Shown in pieces: positions 31,954 to 48,178 of a DNA stretch of 64,000 nt. The stretch is taken from assembly GCF_003363015.1 (NCBI RefSeq), contig NZ_QRAP01000006.1:248001-312000 (forward strand). The letters run 5' to 3'. Under the pieces are notes generated by a model, which did not search any database, was not told where the DNA came from, and saw only the letters and a program-made list of their open reading frames with translations. The stretch comes from Enterobacillus tribolii (GTDB lineage: Bacteria > Pseudomonadota > Gammaproteobacteria > Enterobacterales > Enterobacteriaceae). The translations under genes and the position numbers were made by a program. How positions within the stretch are numbered: position 1 is the first letter of the stretch; each line of letters starts with the position of its first letter.

Positions 31954-32811
31954 TTAAGCGTCGTGATATTCTTCGCACGCCTGCAGCGTGTTTTGGATCA
32001 GGGTGGCAACGGTCATCGGACCGACGCCGCCGGGAACCGGGGTAATCCAGGAAGCGCGTTGTGATGCGCTGTCGAACTCGACATCGCCGACCACTTTGCC
32101 GCTTTCCAGACGGTTGATGCCGACATCAATGACGACCGCGCCGGGTTTGATCCATTCACCGGGAATAAAGCCCGGCTTGCCGACCGCGACGACCAGCAGA
32201 TCGGCACCTTCCACGTGATGGCGTAAATCCTGGGTGAAGCGGTGGGTGACGGTGGTGGTGCATCCGGCCAGCAAAAATTCCATCGCCATCGGGCGGCCGA
32301 CGATGTTAGAGGCACCGACCACGACGGCGTTTTGCCCGTAGGTTTCGATTTCGTAGCGTTCCAGCAGCGTCATGATGCCGCGCGGCGTGCAGGGGCGCAG
32401 CTTCGGCGCGCGCTGGCACAGGCGGCCGACGTTGTAAGGGTGGAAGCCGTCAACGTCTTTGTCGGGGCTGATGCGTTCAAGCACCTTGACGTTATCAATA
32501 CCGGCCGGCAGCGGCAACTGCACCAGGATGCCGTCAATGGAGGGGTTATTATTCAAATCGTCAATCAGGGAAAGCAACTGGGCTTCGCTGGTGGAGTCGG
32601 GTAAATCATAGGATTCGGAAATAAAGCCGACCTCTTCGCAGGCGCGACGCTTGCTGCCGACATAAATTTGTGAAGCCGGGTTTTCACCCACCAGCACCAC
32701 CGCCAGGCCGGGGGCGCGCTTACCTTCCGCCAAACGTTGCTGAACCCGCGCAGCCACTTCATTTCTGACTTGCTGCGCAATCATTTTGCCATCAATAATC
32801 TTTGCTACCAT
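31954..32811 (-). CDS. folD: Bifunctional methylenetetrahydrofolate dehydrogenase / cyclohydrolase
   Basis: FolD interconverts 5,10-methylene-, methenyl- and 10-formyl-THF. The 285-residue protein contains [13 protein letters not shown] with the catalytic Lys, [35 protein letters not shown] for NADP and a C-terminal [14 protein letters not shown]. It is first in the folD-ybcJ unit, and the tRNA-Arg gene lies about 490 bp beyond its start, as in E. coli. Nothing else recognisable lies in 32812-33227. Confidence 0.98.
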
Positions 32812-33227
32812 GGGTGAGAAGGTCCGTCGAATTAGCCTGCGAGGGTGCCTATTGTGTCAGATGAGAGCGGCGCTGTCAGGCAAAGAATTTTTACGCCGCA
32901 TATCGGCAGGCAAACGATTACCTCCAGGGCCGGCGGGAGCGTGCGCGGTTGAGGCGCGGGAACGCCCCGTGATGTGTTAACCGTCGGTTTTATGCTTTCG
33001 GCTTCTTCTTTATATGTCTTTTTCGTACGTTGGTGAGGATGTTTTCAGCTGATCAGGCGGAATGGGGGCCTGAAAGGGAGGATGCCAGCGCCGCATCCGG
33101 CGATGTTTTTTCAACGCCGGAGGCAACGTATTTCACTGATTTTTCATCCGGAAAGCGCGCCGGAGGAAGGAGTGGATAAAGAGTGACCGGACAGACGCCC
33201 AAAGGGAACAGCACGGGTGAAAATGCA

Positions 33228-33255
33228 TTGACTCAGTGGGCGCTGACCGTATAAT
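33228..33255 (+). promoter_or_regulatory. Promoter of tRNA-Arg
   Basis: TTGACT (33228-33233), 16-bp spacer, perfect TATAAT (33250-33255), then a GC-rich discriminator. Placed 44 bp upstream of the mature tRNA. Confidence 0.85.
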
Positions 33256-33298
33256 CCCATGCGTTTGTGCAGTTTACTGTCCAAAGACTTTCCTCTTT

Positions 33299-33375
33299 GC
33301 GCCCTTAGCTCAGTTGGATAGAGCAACGGCCTTCTAAGCCGTAGGTCGTAGGTTCGAATCCTACAGGGCGTGCCA
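33299..33375 (+). tRNA. argU: tRNA-Arg (anticodon TCT)
   Basis: A 77-nt cloverleaf with encoded CCA. The acceptor stem GCGCCCT pairs with AGGGCGT including one G-U pair; the D-arm is AGCTCAGTTGGATAGAGC. The anticodon stem-loop CGGCCTTCTAAGCCG reads AGA/AGG, and the T-loop is GGTTCGAATCC. It is near-identical to E. coli argU and occupies the same place after folD. argU is a well-known integration site for phages and islands, and the fimbrial island begins immediately downstream. Confidence 0.98.
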
Positions 33376-33685
33376 TTACATTATCAATGTGTTATGTCTG
33401 TGCGTTATGCGCTTCTCAACCCAGCCGGATTTTCTTCTTGTGTCGTTTTTGTGTCGTTGCCTTTAAAGAAGGTATCAATTTTACGGGCGTGCCCGGTAAG
33501 ATTATGGGGCTATTCGGCGTGGTATAAAAACCGGAACGGCCCAAACGTGCGCTGGTATAATAAATAAACCTTAAACCAGCGGTATCTTTTTCTGATATTA
33601 AATCAGTAGATTCTGATATATTCATCTGTGTTTCCGCTTAAGCGTAATTTTATTTAGCATCTGGTGCGGTTTTTTCTGGTTCAGA
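33376..33685. other. Gap between tRNA-Arg and the first recombinase gene
   Basis: 310 bp with no convincing gene. The text just after the tRNA (33416-33480) contains a repeated TGTGTCGTT and could be the tail of a lost integrase, but this cannot be shown. No second copy of the tRNA 3' end was noticed further along the island. Confidence 0.3.
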
Positions 33686-34240
33686 CTAATCACCTTCGAA
33701 AGAAATACTCTTAAAGCGGGCCACGTTCGTTGCGGTATAGAGCACCGTGTGCTGAATATTGCGGTGTCCGAGATAATCCTGGATAAGTCGTGTATCCTTT
33801 CCTTTATCGGCCAGCGCAAAACCGCAGGCATGGCGAAGCATATGCGGATGAACATTAATACTCAGGTTTGCAGCCGCTCCATGCTTTTTGATTAAGTCAT
33901 AAAGCTGTTTTCTGGATAAGGGATTTCCATGTTGTGAAAGAAAAAGCCAGGGCATATCACTGTTAAGCCAGGTTTTGCGGTGCTCCAGCCATAATTGGAT
34001 GGCTTCGATTTCACGGCGTTGCAGGGGATGCGTTGTAGAAAGCCCCCTTTTTATACGGTTTATATAAATGTGGTCTTCTTGAATATCTGTCATTTTCAGT
34101 CTACATAATTCAGTAGCTCTTAATCCGTGGTAGTAGCACATCATGATTAAACAACGATCGCGATAATAATTTGTACCTTGTGGAACGGCGCTAATCATGG
34201 CGTCAACTTCATGTGCGGTCAGATATTTTCTTTGAGTCAT
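33686..34240 (-). CDS. FimB/FimE-type tyrosine recombinase (first copy)
   Basis: A 184-residue minimal tyrosine recombinase, the length of FimB and FimE. Active-site residues are visible: Arg in YHGLRATELCRL, HPHMLRHACGFAL (HxxR) and QDYLGHRNIQHTVLYT (final His and Tyr nucleophile). Such proteins invert fimbrial promoter elements. It is clearly homologous to the recombinase at 37284 but diverged, as FimB and FimE are. It faces the tRNA and its own neighbouring DNA shows no obvious inverted repeat pair, so it probably acts on the switch at 37884-38203. A G+C content lower than the chromosome fits an acquired island. Confidence 0.93.
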   Translation of the reverse strand: MTQRKYLTAHEVDAMISAVPQGTNYYRDRCLIMMCYYHGLRATELCRLKMTDIQEDHIYINRIKRGLSTTHPLQRREIEAIQLWLEHRKTWLNSDMPWLFLSQHGNPLSRKQLYDLIKKHGAAANLSINVHPHMLRHACGFALADKGKDTRLIQDYLGHRNIQHTVLYTATNVARFKSISFEGD

Positions 34241-34410
34241 AGTTTAATAAGCTCCACTAATAAGACTTAAATGTAAGAAACGTTAATGAATGATACGGAC
34301 ATTCTTGTTTCTGATAAGGCATTAATTACGACGTTAGCGTTTGATAAAAATGGAATTTTATGATTATCAATGCATTGCAGTAACGGCAATAAATGAGGCA
34401 TAGCTTTAAT

Positions 34411-35355
34411 ATGAATAATAAAATTGACTTGAACCTTGCCCGTTCTCTCTGTGAGGTCATTGATACCAGGTCGGTTAGCCTTGCCGCCTCCAGGCTTAAA
34501 ACCAATGCATCAACGATCAGTACCAATCTGGCTAAATTGCGTAAGCACTACAACAATCCTTTGTTTTTCCGGCAGGGTAATGGAATGCTGCCGACGGCGT
34601 TAGCCCTGGAGCTATATAAAAAATTCCGTCCTGCTCTGGAACTTTTTGAAGAAGCAGAAAACATCGAACTTTTATCCGGTTCTTCCCAGGAGTTACCAAA
34701 ATTACGTGTTTCTGCAGCACCGCTTATTGACCTCATTGTATCCAATATCCTTTTTTCGCAAGATGTCTACGATCTCAATATTAACTGGGATATGCTGACG
34801 CACCCGGATAATTTAGAAGAGCGTATAGAACGCGTCAAAAGGCTACAGGTTGATATAGACTTTGGCGTTGCACTTCCGACGAGTGGCGCTTATCTCAGTT
34901 ATCCAATTTATAGCTGTGGTTTAAAAGTACTCTGCCGCAAAGGACATCCCCGCCTTCAGGGGAAAATCAGTCTGGAGCAATATAAAAAAGAAAAAATTGC
35001 CGGATTAATTCCTCCCGATGAAAATTTGGGTATTGAAATACCCACCTTCACGTATAATGAAGACTTTCTGCTGGCCAGGAACTATCGCTATTCAGCAGCG
35101 CTGACTATGATTATGTTAGTCTCACAGCAAAATCTCATTACCTTTGTGCCATCGTCAATTGCGCCATGGATATGCGACAGATTTGGCCTGCAAATACTGG
35201 AGCCTGATTTTCCCGTTTCAGGAGAGCATAAACTCTGTGCACATGTTCATCGTTCCAAAAAAAATGATCCGATGCTGAAAAAAATTATTGATTCGTTTAT
35301 TCAATTGGTTTCATCGCATAAAGAAACTTATCACTATGGGGGAAACGCAATATAG
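34411..35355 (+). CDS. LysR-type transcriptional regulator of the fimbrial island
   Basis: About 314 residues from the ATG at 34411 (MNNKIDLNLARSLCEVIDTRSVSLAASRLKTNASTISTNLAKL), a LysR-type helix-turn-helix; an ATG at 34393 is an alternative. The C-terminal substrate-binding domain is recognisable (LPKLRVSAAPLIDLIVSNILF, LKVLCRKGHPRLQGKISLEQY). The gene is AT-rich like the rest of this part of the island. It lies between the first recombinase and a pair of LuxR-type genes and may regulate either; no target site was identified. Confidence 0.82.
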   Translation: MNNKIDLNLARSLCEVIDTRSVSLAASRLKTNASTISTNLAKLRKHYNNPLFFRQGNGMLPTALALELYKKFRPALELFEEAENIELLSGSSQELPKLRVSAAPLIDLIVSNILFSQDVYDLNINWDMLTHPDNLEERIERVKRLQVDIDFGVALPTSGAYLSYPIYSCGLKVLCRKGHPRLQGKISLEQYKKEKIAGLIPPDENLGIEIPTFTYNEDFLLARNYRYSAALTMIMLVSQQNLITFVPSSIAPWICDRFGLQILEPDFPVSGEHKLCAHVHRSKKNDPMLKKIIDSFIQLVSSHKETYHYGGNAI

Positions 35356-35493
35356 ATAACCGATGATCTATAACGCAGGCCTAATCAGTAAGGCCAGATT
35401 CTTTTCTCTGGTCAATGCTGTGACAGAGAATGCCGATCATTTTTAGCGTTGATATGACTTCCCTTGCTCATAACGCGCGCGCTGCGGGAAAAT

Positions 35494-36168
35494 TTATTTC
35501 CTTTGTTCCAGAGATAGACAGCGATTTATCGCAGCAAATAGATCTACTTCAGATGTGACGCTGAGTTTGTCCATGATGTGCCGCTTATGCGTGCTGATTG
35601 TTTTTACGCTCCGGCACAGTTGCCCAGCGATCTGGCTAACGCCGTATCCTGCCTGGAGTTTTTTCAGCACATGCAACTCTGCTTTACTGAGTATGGCGTT
35701 TAACGAAGCCACTTTTCGTGTTTCCCGGTGTAGATGCTGCTCTATCAGAGGGCTTATCACCCGTGTTCCCTGTAATGCTGTCGCCACCAGATGAATGCAG
35801 TTTTGCCGGGTTTCCCGCAGGGAAATGACGGACGTTGCACTATCATTCAATAATTGCCGTAAGACAGAACGATCGGTGATATCTGTTAATATGATCAGCG
35901 GACGTTGCGGCCAGCGCTGCTGTAATAACATCAATAAGTTAATATTCGCGCTGATACATTCGTCCTGACCATCAAGCTCCGTAATAATGGCATCAGCATA
36001 ATCAATCTCAGGATGTTCCAGCATATTTTTCGGTGATGCCGCCTGGCAATAAACCTCCATTTTTAGCTGCAGCAATGATAAAAGATGGCGGAAGCCCAGT
36101 TGCATAACAGGCCGTGGGTGTATGATCAGTAACTGCAAAGGTTGTGTCATGTTGTCATCTCGGTTCAT
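35494..36168 (-). CDS. LuxR-type regulator with degenerate receiver domain (left pair, second gene)
   Basis: About 224 residues. The start at 36168 (MNRDDNMTQPLQ) has AGGAG 8 nt upstream and overlaps the preceding gene by 14 bp. The first 120 residues resemble a response-regulator receiver, but the acidic pocket is missing (LLIIHPRPV) and the phosphoacceptor strand reads AIITELDG. The C-terminus is a LuxR/FixJ HTH: LSKAELHVLKKLQAGYGVSQIAGQLCRSVKTISTHKRHIMDKL. The DNA-recognition stretch RSVKT-STHKR is shared with the protein at 47014, so the two pairs are duplicates. Probably phosphorylation-independent; likely controls fimbrial genes. Confidence 0.85.
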   Translation of the reverse strand: MNRDDNMTQPLQLLIIHPRPVMQLGFRHLLSLLQLKMEVYCQAASPKNMLEHPEIDYADAIITELDGQDECISANINLLMLLQQRWPQRPLIILTDITDRSVLRQLLNDSATSVISLRETRQNCIHLVATALQGTRVISPLIEQHLHRETRKVASLNAILSKAELHVLKKLQAGYGVSQIAGQLCRSVKTISTHKRHIMDKLSVTSEVDLFAAINRCLSLEQRK

Positions 36169-36796
36169 TGTTCAATTCTCCTGCCAGGATTTGCAGTTCG
36201 CCGGTCATGTTCATATCTAATTTTGCCAGCGCCTTGCATTTTTGGGCGCTGACGGTACGTACGTTTCTGCGTGTTTGCGCAGCAATTTGTGTGAGGGTAT
36301 AACCTGACATCAGTCGCTGAATTACCTGGCACTCCCGGTATGTCAGTCGGGGTACAGGGATATCGGTGTTCTTTGCGGCGAATATATCGGTCAGGCTGTG
36401 CTGCAACTTTTGTTCAGAGACATCCGGTGAAAGCACGTTATTTGCGCCAAAGGCGAACAGCATATTCGCCAGGGAAGGGTTCTCCTGTCCCAAACATATC
36501 ACCACAGGCGTTCCGTTGCCGCTTTCTCGTTTTCTGGTCAAAAACTGCAAAACGGCGATCGCTTCATGATTATGAATGCCCGTTGAAATAAAGATGACAT
36601 CGGCAGAAAACTGGCAACTATCAGAGGCGACAGAAGATAAGTCATTTATCGAATGCTGATATAAAGTAATGCTATCTAATGATGCCAGCATATGGTTTAT
36701 TCCCATATGCGCAATGACATTTGGCTCATAAACGAGAACGTTTAATCTGGCCGGAAGTTTTTCCGATGTAAATTTAAAGGGATTTAAGTTATTCAT
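36155..36796 (-). CDS. LuxR-type regulator with degenerate receiver domain (left pair, first gene)
   Basis: About 213 residues if it starts at the ATG at 36796 (MNNLNPFKF); the frame extends to a GTG at 36913 and the start is uncertain. The N-terminal half is receiver-like (LNVLVYEPNVIAHMGINHML), but the phosphoacceptor strand reads DVIFISTG with Ser for Asp. The C-terminal HTH (LTYRECQVIQRLMSGYTLTQIAAQTRRNVRTVSAQKCKALAKL) contains VRTVSAQK, also found in the protein at 46352. It is translationally coupled to the next regulator. The gap 36797-37283 upstream is AT-rich and must hold the promoters of this pair and of the second recombinase. Confidence 0.82.
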   Translation of the reverse strand: MNNLNPFKFTSEKLPARLNVLVYEPNVIAHMGINHMLASLDSITLYQHSINDLSSVASDSCQFSADVIFISTGIHNHEAIAVLQFLTRKRESGNGTPVVICLGQENPSLANMLFAFGANNVLSPDVSEQKLQHSLTDIFAAKNTDIPVPRLTYRECQVIQRLMSGYTLTQIAAQTRRNVRTVSAQKCKALAKLDMNMTGELQILAGELNNEPR

Positions 36797-37283
36797 ATGT
36801 GTATCAACCAACTGAACAGTGTTCTCCGGAAAGTTATTATAATTATGTAAAGCTAAAACATGCTGTCTGTTACGGGTAGTAACGCATGTCTCCCTGACAT
36901 AATTAATAATCACAGATAAGTCTCGAAAAGATGAAATGAGAGTACAGAAGAGTCTTGGTTGAGAATAGTCTCAGATTACGAGAACCATTTTATGAAAAAA
37001 CATATTATGCTTTAAATACATTGGGTTAGGTGATGATTCAATAGGATGAAGTTTACATATATACATAATGGGACGGTATATATGGACGTTAATTTTTCCT
37101 TAGGAAAATACTCGGCATATAAAAACCATGCACAATGGAAGGGTAATATTTGTTTTCTAAATTTTTCTATGTGTGTTTATAATTAATATCAATGGAATGT
37201 TGCCGTAACCTCGATGAACCACAAAAGATTACGGAAAAATAGGGATGTTATTCCCCCTATGACATGACTAATAAGAGGTACCT

Positions 37284-37832
37284 ATGTCCAACCGAAAATA
37301 TCTGACCGTCTCTGAAATTGAGCAACTTCTGAATGCCGCCAGGGAGGGGACGTTTCCGGAGCGGGATACTTGTCTTATCTGGATGTGTTTCATTCATGGT
37401 TGCCGGGTGAGTGAAATCAACAGCTGGCGTCTTTCTGATATTGATTTATTGAATAACCGAATATTTATCCGGCGTTTAAAGAATGGACTCTCCACCATTC
37501 ACCCTCTCTATGAGCTTGAACGCAATGCATTGGAGGCCTGGCTGAATGTCCGTGCCCGACACCGGTGTGCGGCGAGCGAATGGCTTTTCTTATCGCAGAA
37601 AGGGAACCGGCTTTCCCGTCAGCGCATCTATGAAATACTTCGGGACTGCAGCCAGCGCGCCAGGCTTCCCGTTGATGCACATCCTCATATGCTTCGCCAT
37701 GCCTGCGGTTTTGCGCTGGCTGACAGAGGAATGGACACGCGGTTGATTCAGGACTACCTGGGGCACCGCAATATTCAGCATACGGTGCTATATACCGCTG
37801 CAAATCCGCAACGATTCCTTAGAGCCTGGTAA
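37284..37832 (+). CDS. FimB/FimE-type tyrosine recombinase (second copy, beside the switch)
   Basis: 182 residues. Catalytic residues are Arg in IHGCRVSEINSW, HPHMLRHACGFAL and QDYLGHRNIQHTVLYT. It starts MSNRKYLTVSEIEQLLNAA behind AAGAGG. The stop is only about 50 bp from the left inverted repeat of the putative invertible element, the same order as fimE-fimS-fimA in E. coli. This makes it the prime candidate for switching fimbrial expression. With the copy at 33686 it forms a two-recombinase system. Confidence 0.94.
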   Translation: MSNRKYLTVSEIEQLLNAAREGTFPERDTCLIWMCFIHGCRVSEINSWRLSDIDLLNNRIFIRRLKNGLSTIHPLYELERNALEAWLNVRARHRCAASEWLFLSQKGNRLSRQRIYEILRDCSQRARLPVDAHPHMLRHACGFALADRGMDTRLIQDYLGHRNIQHTVLYTAANPQRFLRAW

Positions 37833-37883
37833 TTAACGGAAAAACTGCTTTGGCGGGAGTGTAAAAACTTGTAACTCTACGGA

Positions 37884-38203
37884 CATATTGTCCCAAACTG
37901 TTCGAGATGTTACTTGCCCCCATTTCCGTTGTCAACAGCGCCTTTTTTTCAGAAAAAGAAATTCTTTTTTATTAACAAAATCAACGTAGTAAAAACTCTC
38001 CTTTCTTTAACACCCCCTTTATATTTACCAATAACTTTCATTTTGATAACAATCAACTTTCTTTTTCATAACCAATAACCAGAAAGTTCGGTAGTCAAAA
38101 CAACCTATTTTTGTTTATGGATAAAACAAGTTGCCAGATTTACATAATGGAAAACTCATTTTAGTAGAGTAAATCACTAAACCGGACATATTGGGACATT
38201 ATG
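37884..38203. promoter_or_regulatory. Putative invertible promoter element (fim-type switch)
   Basis: CATATTGTCCCAA (37884-37896) is the reverse complement of TTGGGACATTATG (38191-38203) at 12 of 13 positions. The enclosed AT-rich DNA makes an element of about 320 bp, very close to the E. coli fimS (314 bp), whose repeats TTGGGGCCA are similar. A recombinase gene lies just left and the major pilin gene 127 bp right. A CATAAT hexamer at 38143 is a possible rightward -10, and promoter-like text also exists on the other strand. I cannot say whether the sequenced orientation is ON or OFF. Confidence 0.75.
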
Positions 38204-38330
38204 AACGGTTTCCCGCTCATTTTGTACCCAGACCAAACCCAAAATGGAATGGCATCGCCGACTGAGGAACAGTTCGGTCGCCAATGGAATGTTTATGCGT
38301 AGCTACGCATTTATTTAAGGAAGTTTTTGT

Positions 38331-38864
38331 ATGAAAAAGAATCTGATTGTTGCTGCTCTGATTGCTGGTGCTATGTCTGCCTCCGTGGCTTCTGCTGATG
38401 ATGGAAAAATCAACTTCGTTGGCGAAATCACTGACAACGCGTGCACCGTAACCAACAGCGTTACCAATCCGCTGACCGTTACTCTGGGCAAAGTTGCCCG
38501 TACGGCGTTCACCGGTGCGGGTTCTACTGCAGCTCCGACCAAGTTCACTATCGCACTGACTAACTGCCCGGAGTCCGTGACTTCTGCTTCTGTGAAGTTC
38601 GACGGCGTAGCTGACACCAACGTCAGCTCTGTTCTGGCTCTGACTCAGGCGACTGGTGAAGACGAAACGACCGCTAGCGGCGTAGGCATTCAGATCATGG
38701 ACAAGCAGAACGTAGCAGTACCGTTGCACACCGCTTCTTCTGCTTACACGCTGGCTCAGGGCGCCAACAACCTGGATTTCGTTGCCCGTTACTATGCAAC
38801 TTCTGCAACGGTAACGTCAGGTCTGGCTAACTCTACCAGCAACTTCACCATCGTTTACAACTAA
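38331..38864 (+). CDS. Major fimbrial subunit (type 1-like pilin)
   Basis: A 177-residue pilin with signal peptide MKKNLIVAALIAGAMSASVASA and the FimA-type domain: GKINFVGEITDNACTV, second Cys in TNCPE for the conserved disulfide, and a C-terminal FTIVYN with the penultimate Tyr that chaperones bind. Codon use is strongly optimised compared with neighbouring island genes, as expected for an abundant shaft subunit. AAGGAAG precedes the ATG. It is separated from the chaperone gene by a terminator, which would make pilin mRNA more abundant than the rest. Confidence 0.93.
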   Translation: MKKNLIVAALIAGAMSASVASADDGKINFVGEITDNACTVTNSVTNPLTVTLGKVARTAFTGAGSTAAPTKFTIALTNCPESVTSASVKFDGVADTNVSSVLALTQATGEDETTASGVGIQIMDKQNVAVPLHTASSAYTLAQGANNLDFVARYYATSATVTSGLANSTSNFTIVYN

Positions 38865-38913
38865 TCCTCCCATCTCGCCCTGTGGGGCGATATGCAGGAT
38901 GTGATGTGATTAC

Positions 38914-38944
38914 GGGCTGGGCTTAGGCCCAGCCCGCCTTTTTT
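38914..38944 (+). terminator. Intrinsic terminator/attenuator after the major pilin
   Basis: GGGCTGGGC (38914-38922), TTAG loop, GCCCAGCCC (38927-38935), then GCC and T6 (38939-38944). Partial read-through would set the ratio of pilin to assembly proteins. Confidence 0.88.
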
Positions 38945-38963
38945 ATCCGGAGTACGCCATATT

Positions 38964-39647
38964 ATGAACACCTGGCTCAAAACCCTTCCCGCTGCCCTGA
39001 TGCTGGTTTGCGGCGTTGCCCAGGCCAGCGGCGGCGTTGTCGTCGGCGGTACCCGTCTTATCTATGACGGCGGCAAGAAGGAGTCTTCTCTGAGCGTCAA
39101 CAACTCGGACAAGCTGCCCTATCTCATCCAGTCCTGGGCGGAGACGCAAAATGGTGGCGCTGAGAAAGCCCCCTTTATCGTCACGCCCCCTTTGTTCCGC
39201 CTTGAAGCCGGCCAGCAGAACGTGCTGCGTATCGTACGTACCGGCGGCAACCTGCCCGAAGATCGGGAAAGTCTCTATTGGCTGAACATCAAGTCTATTC
39301 CGTCCGCACCGAAAACGGAAGACGGCGCCAATACGCTGCAGATTGCGGTCAAGACCCGTATCAAGCTGATTTACCGCCCCAAAGGGCTGAAAGGTTCGCC
39401 GGGCGAAGTGACCTCGAAACTGACCTGGTCTCAGAGCGGCAACAAGCTCACCGTCACCAACCCCACGCCGTTCTATATGAACTTCCGTGAAATCAAGGTT
39501 GGCGGACGTGAAATCAAGGATGCCACCTTCGTCGCCCCGCAGGGACAAGCCACGTTCAACGTACCGAACGGCGCGTCCGGGCAGGTGACATGGAAACTGA
39601 TTAACGATTACGGCGGCGTCGGGCCGGAACACAAAAACGGAGCCTGA
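38964..39647 (+). CDS. Periplasmic fimbrial chaperone (PapD/FimC type)
   Basis: 227 residues with a signal peptide ending CGVAQA. The two Ig-like domains show GGVVVGGTRLIYDGGKKESSLSVNN (G1/A1 edge with the conserved Arg), PPLFRLEAGQQNVLRIVR, SLYWLNIKSIP and NPTPFYMNFREIKVGGR. The short stretch between the F1 and G1 strands indicates the FGS subclass that serves rod-like pili. It would cap subunits and deliver them to the usher encoded next. Confidence 0.94.
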   Translation: MNTWLKTLPAALMLVCGVAQASGGVVVGGTRLIYDGGKKESSLSVNNSDKLPYLIQSWAETQNGGAEKAPFIVTPPLFRLEAGQQNVLRIVRTGGNLPEDRESLYWLNIKSIPSAPKTEDGANTLQIAVKTRIKLIYRPKGLKGSPGEVTSKLTWSQSGNKLTVTNPTPFYMNFREIKVGGREIKDATFVAPQGQATFNVPNGASGQVTWKLINDYGGVGPEHKNGA

Positions 39648-39782
39648 GAGGGAACCGGTTCATAACGATGTATTGCCGCAACAGCGTCCCCGTGGATGCG
39701 TAACCCAAGGACACAGGGCGGAACGGAATCGGGCAAAGAGCAAGCCTGATCGGACGACCTGCCGGATACGGAGTAATAAAGG

Positions 39783-42380
39783 ATGTGCATAAAGAACAAT
39801 ACGCCTCCCGGAAGTCGGCGCTGGCGGCTAAACCGCCTGGCCTGCTTTATCGCGGCCCAGTTGACCCTGCCGGGCATGGTCATGAGCGATGCCCTGGCGC
39901 GCGACTATTTTAACCCCGCGTTGCTGGAACTCGGCGGCGGCAACGGCGCTGACCTTTCAGCGTTTGAAGAGAAAGGGGGGCAGTTACCTGGTACTTACCG
40001 GGTTGACGTGTTCCTCAACAACGAAAAAGTGGACACCCGCGACGTTGAATTCCGCATGATGAAGGATGGTAAGGGCAAGGAAACCCTGCAACCCTGTATT
40101 CCTGTGGCCGACCTGAAGCAGTGGGGCGTCAAGACCGACTTCTACCCGCAACTGGGCGCGCCCGGCGACGCCTGCGCCAATATCACCAGCATCGAACTGG
40201 CTGACGCCGATTTTCGTTTCGGGCAGCAGCAACTGGTGCTGAGTTTTCCGCAGTCGGCGGTGAAAAGCAACGCGCGTGGCTGGGTGGACCCCAAAATGTG
40301 GGATGACGGTATTCCCGCCGTCCTGCTTAACTACAGCGTATCCGGCGCCAATAACTATGCCAAGAGCGGCAAGGGTTATGACAGCGACAGCCAGTTCGTC
40401 AACCTGCGCCCCGGTATCAACATCGGCCCCTGGCGGCTGCGCAACTACACCACCTGGAGCCGCAACAGCAGTAAAGCGCCGGGTGCGCGGACCAGCAGCA
40501 GCTGGGACACGGTCTATACCTACGCCCAGCGCAACATCGTCAGCCTGAAAAGCCAGCTGACGCTGGGTGACAGCACCACGCCGTCCGACGTGTTCGACAG
40601 CATTCCGTTCCGCGGCGCCCAGATGGCGTCCGACGACGACATGCTGCCTGAGAGTTTGCGCGGTTACGCCCCGATCGTGCGCGGTATCGCCCGCAGCAAC
40701 GCCCAGGTCACTATCCGCCAGAACGGCTACGTGATTTACCAGACCTACGTGGCGCCGGGCGCTTTTGAGATCACTGACATGTACCCCACCGGCGGCTCCG
40801 GTGACCTGCAGGTCAATATCAAAGAGTCCGACGGCAGCGAACAGAACATGGTCATTCCGTATGCGTCGGTTCCGGTGATGCAGCGTGAGGGCCGCCTTAA
40901 GTACAGCGTGACCTCCGGTGTCTACCGTGCCTATGACAGCAGTATCGAGCAGACGCCGCTGACCCAGGCCACCGCTATTTACGGCCTGTCTCACGGCATG
41001 ACTTTATACGGCGGCGGTCAGTTCGCCAGCAAGTATCAGTCGCTGTCGCTGGGCGTGGGTAAAAACCTCGGGATGCTCGGCGCGGTGTCGGCCGATGTCA
41101 CCCAGGCGTGGTCGCGCCAGCAGGACAGTGCGCGTGAGAACGGCCAGTCGTGGCGTATCCGCTACAGCAAGAACTTCGTCGAGACCGGCACCAACTTCGC
41201 CATCGCCGGTTATCGCTATGCGACCAGCGGCTACTGGGGCATGCAGGAGGTGCTGGACACCTACCGCGACAACCACAGCTACCCGTTGCAGGAACGCCGC
41301 CGTAACCGTGCGGAAATGTCACTCACCCAGAGCCTGGGCAAACTGGGCGGTTCGCTGGCCCTGAGCGCGGTGCGTGAGGATTACTGGAACAGCAGCCAGA
41401 CCATGGAGTCCTACGGCGCGAGCTACAACAACTCGTTTGCCGGCATCAGCTATGGACTGAGCTACACCTATAACCTGAACTCATACGCGACCGGCTCTAC
41501 CGGCGGCGGCAGCAGCAGCAAGGTGTACAGCCGCGATCAACTGTTCTCGCTCAACCTCAGCATCCCGATTGATAAACTGTTCGGCAAGCCGACCTACGTC
41601 AGCTACAACATGAACAGCAGCAAGAACGGCAACACCAGCCACAGTGCGGCGATCAGCGGTACGACGCTGAGCGACGACAGCCTGAGCTGGAGCGTGCTGG
41701 AAGGCTACGGCACCAAAGGGCAGGGCAACAACGGCAACGTCAACCTGGACTGGCGCGCGACTTACGGCGAAGTCACCGGGGGTTATGGCTATGACCAATA
41801 CAGTCAGCGCCTGAACTACGGCGTGCAGGGCGGTGTGCTGGTGCATGAAGACGGCATCACGCTGTCGCAACCGATGGGCGAGACGGTGGCGCTGGTTGCC
41901 GCACCGGGCGCCAAAGGCGTTGCCATCACCGGGCAGACCGGGGTGAAAACAGACTGGCGTGGCTACACGGTGATGCCGTACGCCAGCCCGTTCCGCAAAA
42001 ACGACATTAACCTGGACCCGGAAACGCTGGGCGAGGATGCGGAAATCGGCATAACGACCCAGACGGTAATCCCGACGCGTGGCGCGGTGGTGAAAGCAAA
42101 CTACCAGACCAGCATCGGCAACCGGATATTGATGGTGCTGACGCAGGCCAATGGCAAACCGGTGCCGTTCGGGGCGACGGTAAGCGAAAGCGGCAGCAAG
42201 AACACGCAGGGCTTTATCGTGGGCGACGGTGGTCAGGTCTACCTGACGGGCCTGGGTCAGAGCGGCACGCTGACGGTGCAGTGGGGCAACGGCAGCACGG
42301 AGCGTTGCAGCGTGAGCTACAGCCTGCCGGAGAGCAAGGCGCAGAGCGGTATTAATCAGCTGACGGCGCAGTGCCGGTAA
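39783..42380 (+). CDS. Outer-membrane fimbrial usher
   Basis: This 865-residue usher has a signal sequence after a basic N-terminus (SRRWRLNRLACFIAAQLTLPG). An N-terminal chaperone-binding domain follows (DYFNPALLELGGGNGADLSAFEEKGGQLPGTYRVDVFLNNEKVD), then the 24-strand barrel with plug (FRGAQMASDDDMLPESLRGYAPIVRGIARSNAQVTIRQNGYVIY) and C-terminal domains ending with a Cys pair (RCSVSY, LTAQCR). It forms the pore through which subunits are assembled. The gap of 135 bp before it holds nothing recognisable. GC-rich and rich in Ser/Gly repeats in the barrel. Confidence 0.96.
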   Translation: MCIKNNTPPGSRRWRLNRLACFIAAQLTLPGMVMSDALARDYFNPALLELGGGNGADLSAFEEKGGQLPGTYRVDVFLNNEKVDTRDVEFRMMKDGKGKETLQPCIPVADLKQWGVKTDFYPQLGAPGDACANITSIELADADFRFGQQQLVLSFPQSAVKSNARGWVDPKMWDDGIPAVLLNYSVSGANNYAKSGKGYDSDSQFVNLRPGINIGPWRLRNYTTWSRNSSKAPGARTSSSWDTVYTYAQRNIVSLKSQLTLGDSTTPSDVFDSIPFRGAQMASDDDMLPESLRGYAPIVRGIARSNAQVTIRQNGYVIYQTYVAPGAFEITDMYPTGGSGDLQVNIKESDGSEQNMVIPYASVPVMQREGRLKYSVTSGVYRAYDSSIEQTPLTQATAIYGLSHGMTLYGGGQFASKYQSLSLGVGKNLGMLGAVSADVTQAWSRQQDSARENGQSWRIRYSKNFVETGTNFAIAGYRYATSGYWGMQEVLDTYRDNHSYPLQERRRNRAEMSLTQSLGKLGGSLALSAVREDYWNSSQTMESYGASYNNSFAGISYGLSYTYNLNSYATGSTGGGSSSKVYSRDQLFSLNLSIPIDKLFGKPTYVSYNMNSSKNGNTSHSAAISGTTLSDDSLSWSVLEGYGTKGQGNNGNVNLDWRATYGEVTGGYGYDQYSQRLNYGVQGGVLVHEDGITLSQPMGETVALVAAPGAKGVAITGQTGVKTDWRGYTVMPYASPFRKNDINLDPETLGEDAEIGITTQTVIPTRGAVVKANYQTSIGNRILMVLTQANGKPVPFGATVSESGSKNTQGFIVGDGGQVYLTGLGQSGTLTVQWGNGSTERCSVSYSLPESKAQSGINQLTAQCR

Positions 42381-42398
42381 GGCGAGAGGGAATTTATC

Positions 42399-43565
42399 AT
42401 GTCCAGATTAAATGAAAGAATAAACGGATTAAAAGCAGTCGGAAATATCCGGCGTCAGTTGCGTGTTATATTCGCCGCCCTGGCGCTGCTGGCCCTGAGC
42501 GGGGTTTATCACACCACTATGGCTGCTTGTACCACCCCAGGCAGAACAGAGTATAACCTTCTGTCAGGAAGCATAAAGATTAGTCCCAGCGATCCGGTTG
42601 GCACTGTCTATGTGAACAGAACTTTATCGCTGCCCACGTATGTGACATGCACAGGGGCCTATGAATCTGACCCAAACTATTTTATTGCACGCACGAATCC
42701 TTCCGGATATTACGCCGGTAATGCGGTCGTCAGTGGTGATACCGTTACCGCAGAGCTTTACGTCGGTGATGGATATCGCGGGCTGGCGAAACCCACCGGT
42801 ATTTATGTCGTGGCAAAACTGCTTCCTGAATATAATGCCGGGATCTGCACACAAAGCAGTTTTGGAAGGAGCGCCCCGTGCCCTTCAGCCCGGTTGGACA
42901 CGATTCCGCCAACATCTAAAGACAAGAAAACGTATTTCACCTATACCGCCAATGTCCAGGTAACGGTAACTAAAAATGTGGAGCGTAATCTCGGCAGTAT
43001 TAGTGGCGGGATAGGGTTTGACAGCAATGGTTCTTACTCGAGGCAGTTAATAGAGTTTGGGATGTTATCGCAGGGTGATGTTCCCGGGAATTACTTCTTC
43101 TATGCAGGTGCAGTACTCTCCCTGCGGGACAAAGCTGTTTTTGTGACAAAAGGATGCCGTCCTAATAGCAACGATATAAATATCCCGCTGGGTACAATAC
43201 CGCTATCTCAATTTAAAGGGGTAGGCACCACTGTCGGGGAAAAAACATTCTCTGTCGGTCTGAATTGTGATGCCGGTGTCCAGGCTTCAGTCACGCTTGA
43301 AGGTATTGCTGACGCTCAGACCAGTTCCAACGCGATTCAATTAATCGGATCGGGGCATGCCGATTTTGCTTCCGGCGTGGCCGTGCAAATACTGCATAAC
43401 GGGAGTGTTATCAAGCCAAACGGCACCACAAAAATTGCCACGATTGATAGCACGACGACGGGGGCTAACTCCTTCAATATGAGCGCCCGTTATTATCAAA
43501 CAGCCGCCACGGTGACCGAAGGCAAGGCCAATGCCGTAGCCACACTGACCATCTGGTACAACTGA
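42399..43565 (+). CDS. Two-domain fimbrial tip adhesin (first copy)
   Basis: 388 residues, about twice a pilin. After a signal sequence ending TTMAA, residues about 45-235 form a unique N-terminal receptor-binding-type domain with several Cys. The C-terminal 150 residues are a pilin domain (FVTKGCRPNSNDINIPLGTI, LNCDAGVQASVTLEG) ending SARYYQTAATVTEGKANAVATLTIWYN. This two-domain plan is that of FimH-like adhesins, though the binding domain is not recognisably FimH. A paralogue with a different N-terminal domain lies at 45018. It directly follows the usher, an unusual place for an adhesin, and is more AT-rich than the usher. Confidence 0.85.
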   Translation: MSRLNERINGLKAVGNIRRQLRVIFAALALLALSGVYHTTMAACTTPGRTEYNLLSGSIKISPSDPVGTVYVNRTLSLPTYVTCTGAYESDPNYFIARTNPSGYYAGNAVVSGDTVTAELYVGDGYRGLAKPTGIYVVAKLLPEYNAGICTQSSFGRSAPCPSARLDTIPPTSKDKKTYFTYTANVQVTVTKNVERNLGSISGGIGFDSNGSYSRQLIEFGMLSQGDVPGNYFFYAGAVLSLRDKAVFVTKGCRPNSNDINIPLGTIPLSQFKGVGTTVGEKTFSVGLNCDAGVQASVTLEGIADAQTSSNAIQLIGSGHADFASGVAVQILHNGSVIKPNGTTKIATIDSTTTGANSFNMSARYYQTAATVTEGKANAVATLTIWYN

Positions 43566-43623
43566 TTAATGCGCCGGCCCCCGGGATGGGGCTGGCTGCG
43601 CACGTATTTTTAAGGAACATATC

Positions 43624-44163
43624 ATGCGTACAATTTTATTACTCTGTTATCGGCAGTACCGGCGGCTCCTGCTGGGCGGTCTGATATTGACTCCGTTTTT
43701 TGTTCAGGCTGACGCCATTAGCTTGTACGTCAACGGCAATATTATCGCCTCTCCCTGCGTCGTTGAGGGCGGCAGCGATATCAACATCGACCTCGGCCAG
43801 GAGCTCCTCACCAGCGCGGTTAACGCCATAGACTACGGCGATAAAGAGAGTGACTGGAAGAATTTCACCATCAATCTCAAAGACTGCCCCTCCAGCAAGG
43901 AGTCCGTTATCGCCACGTTTCACGGCACGCCGGGCAGCCATCCGACACTCTACGCCAATACCGGCGATGCCGGTAACGTGGAGGTAGAACTGAGAACCCA
44001 GGACGGAGAGTCTCCTATGGGGAATGGCATGGAGCACTGGGCCACTATCAAGAGTGACCGCAGCGCCGCCTTTACCCTTAAGGCCCGCGCTGTTAGCCCG
44101 GCGCGTAACGCCACCCCCGGCTCCATCGCTGCGGTGGTCACCATGTCCTTTACCTACAACTAA
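43624..44163 (+). CDS. Minor fimbrial subunit
   Basis: 179 residues with a signal sequence (LLLGGLILTPFFVQA) and a pilin domain: SPCVVEGGSDINIDLGQ, LKDCPSSKESVIATFHGTPG, ending VVTMSFTYN. The sequence fits FimF/FimG-type adaptor subunits linking shaft and tip. It lies 11 bp before another minor pilin gene, within one operon. Confidence 0.88.
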   Translation: MRTILLLCYRQYRRLLLGGLILTPFFVQADAISLYVNGNIIASPCVVEGGSDINIDLGQELLTSAVNAIDYGDKESDWKNFTINLKDCPSSKESVIATFHGTPGSHPTLYANTGDAGNVEVELRTQDGESPMGNGMEHWATIKSDRSAAFTLKARAVSPARNATPGSIAAVVTMSFTYN

Positions 44164-44174
44164 GGAAGACCAGG

Positions 44175-44714
44175 ATGATAAAGATAAACCCCGTCTCCCT
44201 GCTGGCCGCCTCTGCGCTCACTCTGTTGCTCTGCACCGGTGCTCAGGCTGACGCGACCCTGAACTTTTCCGGCAAGCTGGTGGCCCCGGCCTGTACCGTT
44301 GGCTCCACGCTGGCCGCGGGTCAGAACGTTGACCTCGGTTCTACCGGGCGGGTGCAACTGCAGCACGCCAACCAGGCCGGCGAGTGGCAGGAGTTTGATC
44401 TGGTGCTGACCAACTGCCCCACCGGCACCACCAAAAGCACCGTTACCTTTACCGGCACGCCGGATGGGGTCAACGACACGCTGTTCGCCAACGCCGAACC
44501 AACGGACACCGCCGCCACCCACGTGGCGGTGCAGATGGCCGAGCGCGGCAACCTCAGTAACGTGCTGTCTAACGGCAGCACCCTGGAGAAAAACGTCGAC
44601 AGCACGGCCAAAACCGTCACCTTCCCGCTGGCCGCCCGCCTCTACACCCCGGACGGCGGCGCCCGGGCGGGTAAGGTGAAGGCGACCGTGCTGGTGAATT
44701 TTACCTATCAATAG
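44175..44714 (+). CDS. Minor fimbrial subunit
   Basis: 179 residues: signal peptide MIKINPVSLLAASALTLLLCTGAQA, then ATLNFSGKLVAPACTVGS, LTNCPTGTTKSTVTFTGTPDG and C-terminal KATVLVNFTYQ. It is related to the preceding minor pilin, particularly around the TxxFTGTP motif, and is probably a duplicated adaptor. Very GC-rich codon use, in contrast to the adhesins. Its downstream flank contains an inverted repeat (44725-44733 with 44753-44761) and a remnant subunit. Confidence 0.88.
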   Translation: MIKINPVSLLAASALTLLLCTGAQADATLNFSGKLVAPACTVGSTLAAGQNVDLGSTGRVQLQHANQAGEWQEFDLVLTNCPTGTTKSTVTFTGTPDGVNDTLFANAEPTDTAATHVAVQMAERGNLSNVLSNGSTLEKNVDSTAKTVTFPLAARLYTPDGGARAGKVKATVLVNFTYQ

Positions 44715-44791
44715 CGCCGGACATCACCGGTACTGCGGCACCATCTTGCGCGGTACCGGTGGTTAACATCATCAAAAGGAGCGGGACGAAA

Positions 44792-44884
44792 ATGAAGACG
44801 GAACATGACCCCATCACGGTAAAACACCGCTGTTTTGGTCAGGTGAGCGCCACCGTGCCGATGAATTTTACTTGTCAGCCGTAG
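44792..44884 (+). pseudogene. Remnant of a minor pilin gene (30 codons)
   Basis: A short frame with an AAAGGAG site and an ATG at 44792 encodes a peptide ending CFGQVSATVPMNFTCQP. That end resembles the C-terminal strand of the minor pilin just upstream (GKVKATVLVNFTYQ). The peptide has no signal sequence and cannot fold as a pilin. It looks like an internally deleted subunit gene that kept its start region and its end. The stop runs straight into a perfect inverted repeat. Confidence 0.6.
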
Positions 44885-44933
44885 TTTGCATTATGCCAGG
44901 GAGAGGGAATGCCTCACCCTGGCATAATGCAAA
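44885..44933. repeat. Perfect 17-bp inverted repeat with nested stem
   Basis: TTTGCATTATGCCAGGG (44885-44901) and CCCTGGCATAATGCAAA (44917-44933) are exact complements around 15 nt, inside which GAGG pairs with CCTC. No T-run follows, so it is not a standard intrinsic terminator, although it could end the upstream operon. A recombination scar is possible. Confidence 0.7.
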
Positions 44934-45017
44934 CCACGACGAATATTAACGTGAGCGAATCATTAAATTGAAGACATAGCTCTGTTCTGTACACAATATA
45001 AAAATGAGTAAATAACA

Positions 45018-46154
45018 ATGATGGCATTTATTTTTCAGCATGATGCAAACAGGGGGAATAAACAATCCAAAGGACGGATATATCGCCTGTTGGTGTGCAT
45101 TGCGCTCCTGCTTACCGCAGGGGTTGCTAATATTTCTCCGGCAGCAGCAGCAGACGGGCCCTGCACCCTGTCGCCAACAGGCCTGATACCTGTGCTGGGA
45201 GGGGGGGTAAAATTTAGCCTGGCCGACCCGGCAGGAACGGTATATCAGGAACAATCCCGTTCGCTCCCCTTTACGGTTGAATGCAAAAATAACCGCCCGG
45301 CTTATTTGATACTGAACGTTCCGTCCACCGGCACTGATACGTATAAATATTACACGGTGTCTGGTCAGACCGTGACTTATCTGCCGTATAACTCAATATG
45401 GAGCATGAGCCCCTCGGCCGTGAGTTACGAATTAACGATGCAGAGCACTATCTGCCGACAGCAAATCGCTTTTGATGACTGGAAGAAATGTACACCCTAC
45501 GCAAATTATGCGACGGCAGTGATTACCCCCCCGGCCAACACCAGCGCAAATAATCCTTATCGCACAATGGTGTATGTCCCTGTCACGGCGCGCATGTTAC
45601 GCAGTGCTTACAGCACGGTATTTCCTAAAAGTCATCCCACCTCTGAGGATTTACTCAAGGTGAGTTTGATTGGCGAGCCTACCCCGGGGGTTTTCGGCAT
45701 AAGCTACGCCACGCTGACCACCAAAAGCTTGTACCTGGTCACCAAAGGGTGTGTTGTTACGACGCCTTCGGCGACGGTTAACCTGGGCGTAATACGGGTG
45801 AGCGACTTTAAAGGTAAAGGCACGGTTCTGGCCGAAAAACCGTTTACGCTGGGCTTTAACTGCGACCCCTCGGTAAAGGTGAGTATGACCCTGAGTGGCA
45901 AGGCTGACAGCACCGAAAGTAGCGCGCTAGCGCTTATGTCCAAGCTCCAGGGCGATGCAACTGGCGTCGCGGTTCAGATACTGGCAGGGGGCAAGGTAAT
46001 GACGCCCAATGCCACCACGGCAACGGCGGTCATTACCAATGCGGTACAGGGCATAAATGAAGTGAAGATGAGCGCCCGTTATTACCAAACCGCGGCAACG
46101 GTGACAGAAGGCGAGGCTAACGTAGTAGCAACGTTAATCATTGATTATGAGTAA
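45018..46154 (+). CDS. Two-domain fimbrial tip adhesin (second copy)
   Basis: 378 residues with a signal sequence (LLVCIALLLTAGVANISPAAAA). The N-terminal domain differs from that of the adhesin at 42399 (CTLSPTGLIPVLGGGVKFSLADPAGTVYQEQSRSLPFTVECK shares only the framework). The C-terminal pilin domain is close (LVTKGCVVTTPSATVNLGVIRVSDFKGKGTVLAEKPFTLGFNCD, ending SARYYQTAATVTEGEANVVATLIIDYE). Thus the island carries two alternative tips for one usher. A 303-bp gap with an operon-end-like inverted repeat precedes it, so it may have its own promoter. Confidence 0.83.
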   Translation: MMAFIFQHDANRGNKQSKGRIYRLLVCIALLLTAGVANISPAAAADGPCTLSPTGLIPVLGGGVKFSLADPAGTVYQEQSRSLPFTVECKNNRPAYLILNVPSTGTDTYKYYTVSGQTVTYLPYNSIWSMSPSAVSYELTMQSTICRQQIAFDDWKKCTPYANYATAVITPPANTSANNPYRTMVYVPVTARMLRSAYSTVFPKSHPTSEDLLKVSLIGEPTPGVFGISYATLTTKSLYLVTKGCVVTTPSATVNLGVIRVSDFKGKGTVLAEKPFTLGFNCDPSVKVSMTLSGKADSTESSALALMSKLQGDATGVAVQILAGGKVMTPNATTATAVITNAVQGINEVKMSARYYQTAATVTEGEANVVATLIIDYE

Positions 46155-46209
46155 CGGCGATCACGTGTGTCCATCCCCAAAGGGGAAAGCACCATGCCGC
46201 TGAGTACCC

Positions 46210-46287
46210 CGTTATTACCAGATCGCGGCGACCGTCACCGAAGGTAAGGCGGACGCTGCGGCGACACTGCTGATTTATTACAACTAA
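46210..46287 (+). pseudogene. C-terminal remnant of a third adhesin-type subunit
   Basis: The frame from 46210 to the stop at 46285-46287 reads RYYQIAATVTEGKADAAATL then LIYYN, nearly the same as the last 25 residues of both adhesins. Upstream the frame meets a stop at 46201 and there is no start codon. It is therefore a leftover of a deleted or recombined adhesin gene. Confidence 0.75.
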
Positions 46288-46351
46288 ACGCCATGCTTTC
46301 CCTTCTTCTCTTGCGGATATTAGGGAAAACGAACGTACATAAGGAGATGTT

Positions 46352-47011
46352 ATGTCGCATATGACGAAAACGCCTGCGGTCAGGGAGCCGATAACCGCAG
46401 GCACTGCGCTGAAAACTGCGCTGAAAATAGTGGTGCTGGAGCCGGCGGACATTCGCTGGCTGGGCATTCAGCAAATACTCCGTGACGCCGGCGTGGCGGA
46501 AAGCGGGTTACAGCGCATCCGCTCTGCAGATGTACTGAGCGAAACGCTGCACAGCCAACGGCCGGATATTCTGTTGCTGTCATCGGTCAGCGGCAACACG
46601 GTATCGCTGCTGAGCACCTTGCTCACCCTGCGCACCGCCTGCCCCCGGAGCTGCGTGATGGCGATTTTGCATAAAGAGGCGCCCTACCTGCGTGAACTGC
46701 TGCAGGGGTTCGGCGTGGATCAGATATTGACCACGCCGACGCTGGTCGCCGAGCTGCCCGGCCTGCTGAGTGCGCACAGCCAGATGCAGCACCTCAGATC
46801 TGTCGCCCCGCGCTTCACCCGCCAGGAGTGCTACGTGATGCAGGCGCTGCTGGCCGGGTACAGTGTCAGTCAGGTCGCCCGGACGCAGGGCAAAAATATC
46901 CGTACCGTCAGCGCCCAAAAGCAGTCGGTGCTGGGCAAAATGAAGATGATGCACAGCGGCGAGCTGCAGGTATTGGGCGGGTATCTCATGACGGCAGAAG
47001 CCGGGAGGTAA
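46352..47011 (+). CDS. LuxR-type regulator with degenerate receiver domain (right pair, first gene)
   Basis: 219 residues. The receiver-like half (LKIVVLEPADIRWLGIQQIL) lacks the acidic pair and has PDILLLSSV where the phosphoacceptor Asp should be. The C-terminal HTH reads FTRQECYVMQALLAGYSVSQVARTQGKNIRTVSAQKQSVLGKM; the RTVSAQK stretch matches the protein encoded at 36155-36796. It starts MSHMTKTPAV behind AAGGAG and is 2 bp from its partner gene. Placed right after the fimbrial structural genes, it probably feeds back on their expression; inferred. Confidence 0.87.
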   Translation: MSHMTKTPAVREPITAGTALKTALKIVVLEPADIRWLGIQQILRDAGVAESGLQRIRSADVLSETLHSQRPDILLLSSVSGNTVSLLSTLLTLRTACPRSCVMAILHKEAPYLRELLQGFGVDQILTTPTLVAELPGLLSAHSQMQHLRSVAPRFTRQECYVMQALLAGYSVSQVARTQGKNIRTVSAQKQSVLGKMKMMHSGELQVLGGYLMTAEAGR

Positions 47012-47013
47012 CG

Positions 47014-47673
47014 ATGAATAACAGTGGAAAAAAAGCGCTGAGTGAAAAAAAAGCGGTGCGCATTATTATCGGCCATGCCTGCATTCTGACCCGGCGCGGG
47101 CTGGTGCAGCTGTTTGCCGGGTTGCTGCCGCAGGCCGACATTTTGAGTGTCGGCTCACTGCTGACGGCGGGGATCTACCCGGAAATTATCATGGCGGACC
47201 TGGTGGTCAGCGATATTGGTCACGACGTCGTCTCGTCGGCCGCCGGCACGGAACAACTGCTGCTGTTGCCGCAGATACGGGAAGGTAAGCCGCTGGTGAT
47301 GATCGCGGAAGGCGAACACCCGGCGCTGTTGATGCAGCTTGCCCGCTTCTCCAACGTCTCCCTGATTTCCGCCAATGCTTCCCGGCAGAAGCTGAATGCG
47401 CAGCTCACGGAGATACTGGACGGCAAGCAGGTCATTGAGATGATGCCAGCACCGGCGCCGGCACAACAGGTTGCTGAGAAAAGAAGGGAAAAGCTGACAG
47501 CCTCAGAGCAGCGGGTGATGGCATTGTTGCGGGCTGGGTTCAGCGTGACTCAGATTGCCGGGCAACTGTGCCGGAGCGTAAAAACCGTGAGTACCCATAA
47601 GCGGCAGATCATGCGCAAGCTTGGCGTGACGTCGGAAGTGGCGCTGTTCGCGCAGAAATATGAGAACCATTGA
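47014..47673 (+). CDS. LuxR-type regulator with degenerate receiver domain (right pair, second gene)
   Basis: 219 residues from the ATG at 47014 behind GGGAGG. The receiver-like half (VRIIIGHACILTRRGLVQLFAGLL) has lost the N-terminal acidic pair although an Asp remains in LVVSDIG. The HTH reads LTASEQRVMALLRAGFSVTQIAGQLCRSVKTVSTHKRQIMRKL, matching the protein at 35494 in the recognition helix. The pair is a mirror image of the pair at 35494-36796 around the fimbrial genes. Confidence 0.87.
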   Translation: MNNSGKKALSEKKAVRIIIGHACILTRRGLVQLFAGLLPQADILSVGSLLTAGIYPEIIMADLVVSDIGHDVVSSAAGTEQLLLLPQIREGKPLVMIAEGEHPALLMQLARFSNVSLISANASRQKLNAQLTEILDGKQVIEMMPAPAPAQQVAEKRREKLTASEQRVMALLRAGFSVTQIAGQLCRSVKTVSTHKRQIMRKLGVTSEVALFAQKYENH

Positions 47674-47766
47674 GTACTTTTCGCAATAATTGGCGACCGG
47701 CTTGAGCCCGGACGGTTTAATAGCATATTGGCTGTAGAGCGTTGCCTGATACATGGCCTCGTCACT

Positions 47767-48030
47767 CACGGAGAGAAAATGAACCACGCCTGAAATATGA
47801 ACCAGGCGTTGCGGCTCTTTTTTAAGTTCGGTCTGTGCGAGGCTGTAAGCCGTATTTAAATGCGCTATATGTACTCTTTCCGGAAACCTCTGTACCCATT
47901 GCCCGTTCATCAATAACAAAATAACGACTGGCTCAGGCAGTAACGCGATGCCTGTGCCATGAATTGCCGCTGCTTGTTGTACCTGTTGTACCCGCCCGCC
48001 ACTGAAAATCCCCCTTGCGCAGGGATGCAT
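47767..48030 (-). pseudogene. Probable remnant of a LysR regulator C-terminus
   Basis: On the minus strand a frame reads QQVQQAAAIHGTGIALLPEP then a stretch around GQWVQRFPERVHIAHLNTAYSLAQTE. This resembles the last part of LysR effector domains (A..G.GIALLPE..V...L..G.LV..FP......Y.L). No HTH or proper end is present, and the frame runs on into antisense of the LuxR gene. It is read as a truncated gene at the island edge. The remaining gap up to 48178 shows only the region upstream of cpdB. Confidence 0.45.
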
Positions 48031-48178
48031 ATCATAATAACGCTCGCTATCCGCATGTAATAAGTTTCAGGATGCAGTATCTTATCGCTTTCCTCATTGC
48101 TTTCTCTGCCTCCAGAGAGGGCGTTGTTGTTTGTTACTTTGATCATTACTGCGTATGAATTCATTGAGAGAGGGCTAT

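Follow-up and report, generated by a model that had tools for sequence, protein, structure and literature searches.

A putative fimS-type invertible promoter upstream of a pilin gene of Enterobacillus tribolii and a site frame common to related switches

Introduction

In the genome of Enterobacillus tribolii, a FimB/FimE-type recombinase gene and a major pilin gene are separated by an AT-rich intergenic region which recalls the phase switch fimS of E. coli in size and layout, while its repeats carry a different core. This locus raises two questions, namely whether the region is an invertible promoter, and what recombinases of this family could be reading in repeats so unlike one another. Recognition of dissimilar repeats by Fim recombinases is described as an open question in a passage of a 2019 paper (PMC6458436). 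Here we analysed the 64,000-nucleotide stretch of DNA containing the locus (hereafter the window), which is part of contig C6 of the 4.93-Mb genome, and compared it with loci adjoining related recombinase genes. As argued below, the window element is very probably a fimS-type invertible promoter.

The inverted repeat and its genetic context

An initial annotation of this DNA had reported a 12/13 inverted repeat enclosing about 320 bp of AT-rich DNA between a FimB/E recombinase and the pilin gene, and this description was borne out. Read as its reverse complement, the left arm (37884-37896) is TTGGGACAATATG, and it agrees with the right arm, TTGGGACATTATG (38191-38203), at 12 of 13 positions. 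The arms are separated by 294 bp and span 320 bp over their outer ends, with a GC content of about 0.32-0.33, and the whole repeat lies between the recombinase stop (37832) and the pilin start (38331). Taken alone, the repeat is modest evidence for a switch: when the 498-bp region was resampled 150 times under a Markov-1 model, 4.7% of the resamples contained a 12/13 inverted repeat with a span of 280-350 bp; the switch pair ranked fifth in one repeat scan of the region; and by length it is outranked by a chance pair with perfect 12-bp arms (38059-38070/38330-38341), one of which overlaps the pilin start. When family genomes were searched exactly for this core pair with its spacing unchanged, only 1 of 392 matched, the source genome itself, and the other 391 contained no same-core switch at exact match; a backwards control pattern likewise matched one genome.

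The gene adjoining the repeat (37284..37832, + strand) encodes a 182-aa FimB/FimE-type tyrosine DNA invertase (NF007370, 247 bits versus a cut-off of 221; Pfam PF00589), sharing 57% identity with FimB of E. coli and 52% with FimE. Residues R41, K66, H135, R138, H161 and Y170, which we take to be the catalytic ones, were invariant among 8 aligned sequences. On the other side of the repeat, and also on the + strand, lies the gene for the major pilin (38331..38864, 177 aa; Fimbrial domain, PF00419), identified by domain search, as were two long proteins whose Fimbrial domain is C-terminal (42399-43565 and 45018-46154). Reading of the translations added a periplasmic chaperone-like ORF (38964..39647, 227 aa), an outer-membrane usher-like ORF (39783..42380, 865 aa) and two minor-pilin-like ORFs (43624-44163 and 44175-44714), all in the same orientation. 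Pairs of LuxR-type regulator ORFs flank the fimbrial operon at 35494-36913 (- strand) and 46352-47673 (+ strand), the one at 46828-47673 being recognised by reading only.

Profile search and alignment revealed a second FimB/FimE-type invertase (33686..34240, - strand), 53% identical to the first, for which no site pair of its own was found in the window. In Limnobaculum allomyrinae, its ortholog (79% identity) is found next to the orthologous locus, and recombinase gene pairs about 1 to 12 kb apart were recurrent in our genome search. Whereas the E. coli recombinases are arranged in tandem, the second one of the window is divergently oriented at a distance of about 3 kb; it may possibly be a partner acting on the same switch.

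Anatomy of the recombination sites

Given that a ranking by length only missed the switch pair of the window, we adopted a 21-bp site frame, obtained by aligning the window sites with E. coli fimS and relatives. It consists of GWCANNT, seven central bases and AANTGWC, its core being CA-N13-TG around the central 7 bp. The predicted left site, GACATATTGTCCCAAACTGTT (37882..37902, + strand), comprises an outer half-site (37882-37888), the central block TGTCCCA (37889-37895) and an inner half-site (37896-37902). The predicted right site, TTCATAATGTCCCAATATGTC (38185..38205, - strand), comprises an inner half-site (38185-38191), the central block (38192-38198, TGGGACA on the + strand) and an outer half-site (38199-38205). 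By sequence, four half-sites flanking and overlapping the repeats are present, and outside the central block the left and right sites differ from each other. The segment predicted to invert (37896..38191) corresponds to the 296 bp separating the two 7-bp blocks, exactly as in fimS of E. coli KO11, and over the outer ends of the 21-bp sites the span is 324 bp in both. A passage of PMC5903667 likewise gives fimS as 296 bp without its repeats.

The window pair reached a frame score of 37, compared with a maximum of 33 among 1660 resampled regions, a control which is not fully independent because the frame was partly drawn from the tested loci. Within the 64-kb window, at least 13 of the 17 frame positions were reached by the two switch sites only. 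Unlike the repeat alone, this fuller site anatomy constitutes strong evidence.

The same anatomy explains the direct copies of CGGACATATTG that had been noticed in both repeat regions (37880-37890 and 38183-38193) and tentatively read as a recombinase half-site or an accessory site. The copies are there and the half-site reading stood, since they cover the left outer (37880) and right inner (38183) half-sites; it replaced the idea of an extra accessory site, which was dropped. The observation that the repeat core departs from that of E. coli fimS proved correct as well: TTGGGGCCA is not the core of these repeats, its place being taken by TGTCCCA. Such a departure is normal, and not a defining trait of this switch, because 21 central versions exist among the 77 switches described below. 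No ORF of at least 90 aa lies wholly inside the enclosed 296 bp. An IHF-like match at 37979..37991 (+ strand) is weak, with one mismatch.

A catalogue of related switches and the central 7-bp block

Related loci were gathered in two sets. The first comprised 83 regions: 77 of 80 relative loci (without L012, L064 and L075), two from E. coli, the window and three loci of its own genome. Downstream of the related recombinases, 33 of these 83 regions scored at least 33. The Proteus (nine recombinases), Providencia, Photorhabdus and Xenorhabdus loci of this set yielded no downstream site pair; their switch is presumably located on the opposite side of the gene. The mrp switch of Proteus mirabilis lies on the 5' side of its recombinase gene. 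Like the putative window switch, it is a short intergenic invertible promoter, but both window sites are 3' of the recombinase, which distinguishes them from a switch of the mrp/MrpI type; the mrp invertible promoter is given as 251 bp in a passage of PMC5903667. The second set comprised 103 loci, i.e. 100 regions around 148 genome-search matches plus E. coli fimS, ipuS and hyxS, and 59 of them cleared a less stringent threshold (a score of 31 or more and identity at 6 or 7 of the 7 central bases). Both sets together yielded 91 switches, reduced to 78 by removal of 13 identical segments and to 77 by removal of a second E. coli copy. The 21-bp frame is thus common to the window, E. coli fimS and 75 further switches beside related recombinases.

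In 75 of these 77 switches the central 7 bp were identical between the left and right sites, despite occurring in 21 versions; a permutation over the 21 class representatives gave 7.0 observed versus at most 5.5 in 20000. The figure of 75/77 is partly built in, because the catalogue score rewards left-right identity, and for this reason the site choice was repeated with outer positions only. Using eight outer positions, the 77 regions gave 64 unique best pairs (13 were tied), 57 of which were identical at all seven central positions, a less biased test even though the regions were those already catalogued. Left-right identity in this test was 0.91-0.95 at the seven central positions and 0.86 and 0.53 at the adjoining two. 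Adding three flank positions raised the count to 61/69, and in the first 32 switches it was 28/29. The dyad of the CA...TG half-sites lies at the centre of these seven positions. Within the block, the second position was G in 149 of 154 sites and the last was A in all 154, a partial conservation indicating that the exchange block is not wholly free.

We propose that the dissimilar part of the repeats is an exchange block for which identity between left and right is the sole requirement, and that the seven bases swapped in such switches have probably been located by comparing many of them. It seems somewhat better than an even bet that all Fim-family switches follow one grammar, in which CA...TG half-sites 13 bp apart surround a barely read 7-bp exchange block that is the same on both sides. 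If true, this would explain how the FimX, FimE and Ipu recombinases act on the unlike repeats of fimS, ipuS and hyxS; it would also imply that the same new block on both sides keeps a switch working, and that a change on one side locks it. The 77 natural switches provide, in testable form, a map of the bases read and the bases swapped by Fim recombinases, and the site rule bears on the question of Fim recombinase specificity left open in the above-mentioned passage (PMC6458436). The E. coli ipuS and hyxS switches themselves (L151 and L152) have the same 21-bp frame and 7/7 central identity. Their central blocks differ from that of the window (TGACCCA and TGATTCA), and the genes under their control are not pilin genes but those for a LuxR regulator and an autotransporter, or the hyx genes; our promoter caller gave no call for them. 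They have been described with 7-bp (ipuS) and 16-bp (hyxS) repeats, according to a portion of PMC6083910.

Two switches, L153 (G154:C2:117775-119400) and L205, showed left-right identity at no more than 6 of the 7 central positions, which makes them candidates for natural locked switches. The idea that the block could work as a barcode, differing within a genome and preventing cross-recombination, was discarded: a block was shared in 3 of 19 within-genome pairs and in 212 of 1934 between-genome pairs.

The internal promoter and the orientation of the switch

Inside the segment, a predicted promoter TTGACA-17-TAACAT (37907..37935, - strand) points to the recombinase gene. About one promoter of such quality is expected by chance (1.3 in the shuffled region), so the argument lies in its conserved position: in relatives called OFF, the -10 end was mostly 14-15 bp from the centre of the left site. 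As the internal promoter points away from the pilin gene, this assembly was called OFF, and the pilus is predicted to be off in it. With the 324-bp span, the NF007370 recombinase, the four half-sites and this internal promoter all fitting, the likeness to E. coli fimS in size and layout suggested by the initial annotation holds. The two elements share the recombinase-switch-pilin order, the CA-N13-TG frame and an OFF state in most assemblies, and they differ in their central block (GGGGCCA in E. coli) and in the promoter spacer, of 18 in E. coli and 17 in the window.

Over 78 switches, 59 were called OFF, 3 ON and 16 remained unclear; in a control of the caller on four E. coli genomes, two were called OFF and two ON. 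In assemblies, a functional fim switch gives just such an excess of OFF. When a 481-bp KO11 sequence was used as a query, at least 4,411 of the 4,678 matching E. coli genomes covered at least 80% of it in one place and must be colinear with this OFF reference, as an inverted copy cannot give such coverage. The remaining genomes were not all ON: among three low-coverage matches listed, two were ON and the third matched the fimA end only. Between KO11 (OFF) and SC487 (ON), the inner half-sites are swapped around an unchanged GGGGCCA. In E. coli S3 (L253, ON) the swap came with a one-base shift, one T of the repeat flank being found at the left site instead of the right one, as though the exchange had been displaced by one base. 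Searched with the window itself, 4710 of 5426 E. coli genomes matched, none covering 80%, and the best 20 listed were recombinase genes; similarly, 69 plasmid records matched, none covering 80% of the query, and the best 20 listed were recombinase or pilin fragments.

The nearest homologues found were the fim-like switches of Limnobaculum (L007, and by genus handle L153 and L154), which occupy the same place and were OFF in 3 of 3 genomes, with recombinases 84-85% identical to that of the window. Limnobaculum allomyrinae was the closest named relative at the locus (84%). Their central block differs, being TGTTCCA, except that the right-hand block of L153 is TGCTCCA. The window segment aligned with L007 and L154 in the same orientation, scoring 140 and 144.5, respectively, versus 83 and 77 when inverted and at most 107 and 106 in shuffles. 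The score with L153 (113) was hardly above shuffles (at most 109), and the alignment with the switch of contig C10 of the same genome was not above them. For the window switch, the orientation in its species and genus comes from one genome.

For inverted versions in related assemblies, proposed at the outset as a check, there was one candidate. Among the three ON calls, L180 and L222 were based on poor promoters, and only L015, from a single metagenome-assembled genome of Buttiauxella, had a good one (12.4). The internal DNA of L015 fitted better when inverted against 15 of 19 same-block switches, compared with 0-3 of 19 for four controls, and its segment gave inverted matches to those of L014 and L017 (E about 1e-5). 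These inverted matches were absent at the stricter cut of a segment-pair test, in which 118 of 119 similar pairs had the same orientation and the sole inverted pair, L166/L233, involved two switches called OFF. L015 appears, credibly, to be in the opposite (ON) orientation.

Alternative explanations

The best-surviving alternative, to which we grant a small probability, is a locked or decaying former switch whose sites and promoter are relics, the pilin being permanently off or under another promoter. The OFF state of this assembly and of 59 of the 78 switches would fit it, as would the differences between the left and right sites outside the central block and the loss of 7/7 identity in a near relative, L153. 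On the other hand, the central 7 bp are intact, the recombinase frame is open with all its invariant residues, and a near-consensus promoter occupies the conserved place; besides, a working switch looks alike in assemblies, as the E. coli genomes colinear with the OFF reference illustrate.

Much less credible is a repeat that arose by chance, or that serves the nearby regulators as paired operators, with no recombination at all. The rate at which the 12/13 repeat arose in resampled regions and the presence of LuxR- and LysR-type genes at 34393-36913 speak for it. Yet many genera carry such sites 3' of the recombinase gene, their span in the window is the same as in fimS, and 21 central blocks in which left equals right are unlike one conserved operator. 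Attachment sites of an integrating element, suggested by the kinship of tyrosine recombinases with integrases and by a tRNA-Arg at 33299 (Rfam returned tRNA only on 32500-48500), are just as improbable, given that the sites are inverted and not direct and that the enclosed 296 bp are promoter-like, hold no ORF of at least 90 aa and adjoin the pilin gene.

A model for the switch

The window element is, in our view, an ordinary switch of the fimS type and a newly added member of that type. We infer that the product of the recombinase gene at 37284, and perhaps that of the gene at 33686 as well, would bind the four half-sites, two per TGTCCCA block, and would cut and exchange strands within the blocks 37889-37895 and 38192-38198. 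This exchange would invert the 296 bp between the two blocks, so that the promoter at 37907-37935 would read either back into the recombinase gene (OFF) or through the right site and on into the pilin operon (ON).

Other switches of the same genome

The source genome contains three such switches in all. Besides that of the window, a complete switch precedes a pilin gene on contig C10 (block TGTTCCA, recombinase 78% identical) and another on contig C5 (block TGAACTA, recombinase 68%), both called OFF. Two further recombinase genes had no recognisable site pair, one on C1 (74%, G000:C1:23332-23877), with no pilin ORF seen adjoining it, and one on C4 (56%, G000:C4:366565-367092). The bacterium is consequently predicted to phase-vary three different pili, each with its own adjacent recombinase and central block.

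The leaders of these pilin genes offered two minor observations. In the window, a hairpin ATGCGTAGCTACGCAT (38295-38310) is found directly upstream of the pilin ribosome-binding site, and a stem with different yet pairing bases occurs at about the same place in the C10 and C5 switches, L014 and L159. This comparison covered 17 leaders, of which four had no start found and one a wrong start, and the others did not clearly show the stem. The C10 leader (L109) contains, between the right site and the pilin gene, a run of ten C that might be a slippage tract.
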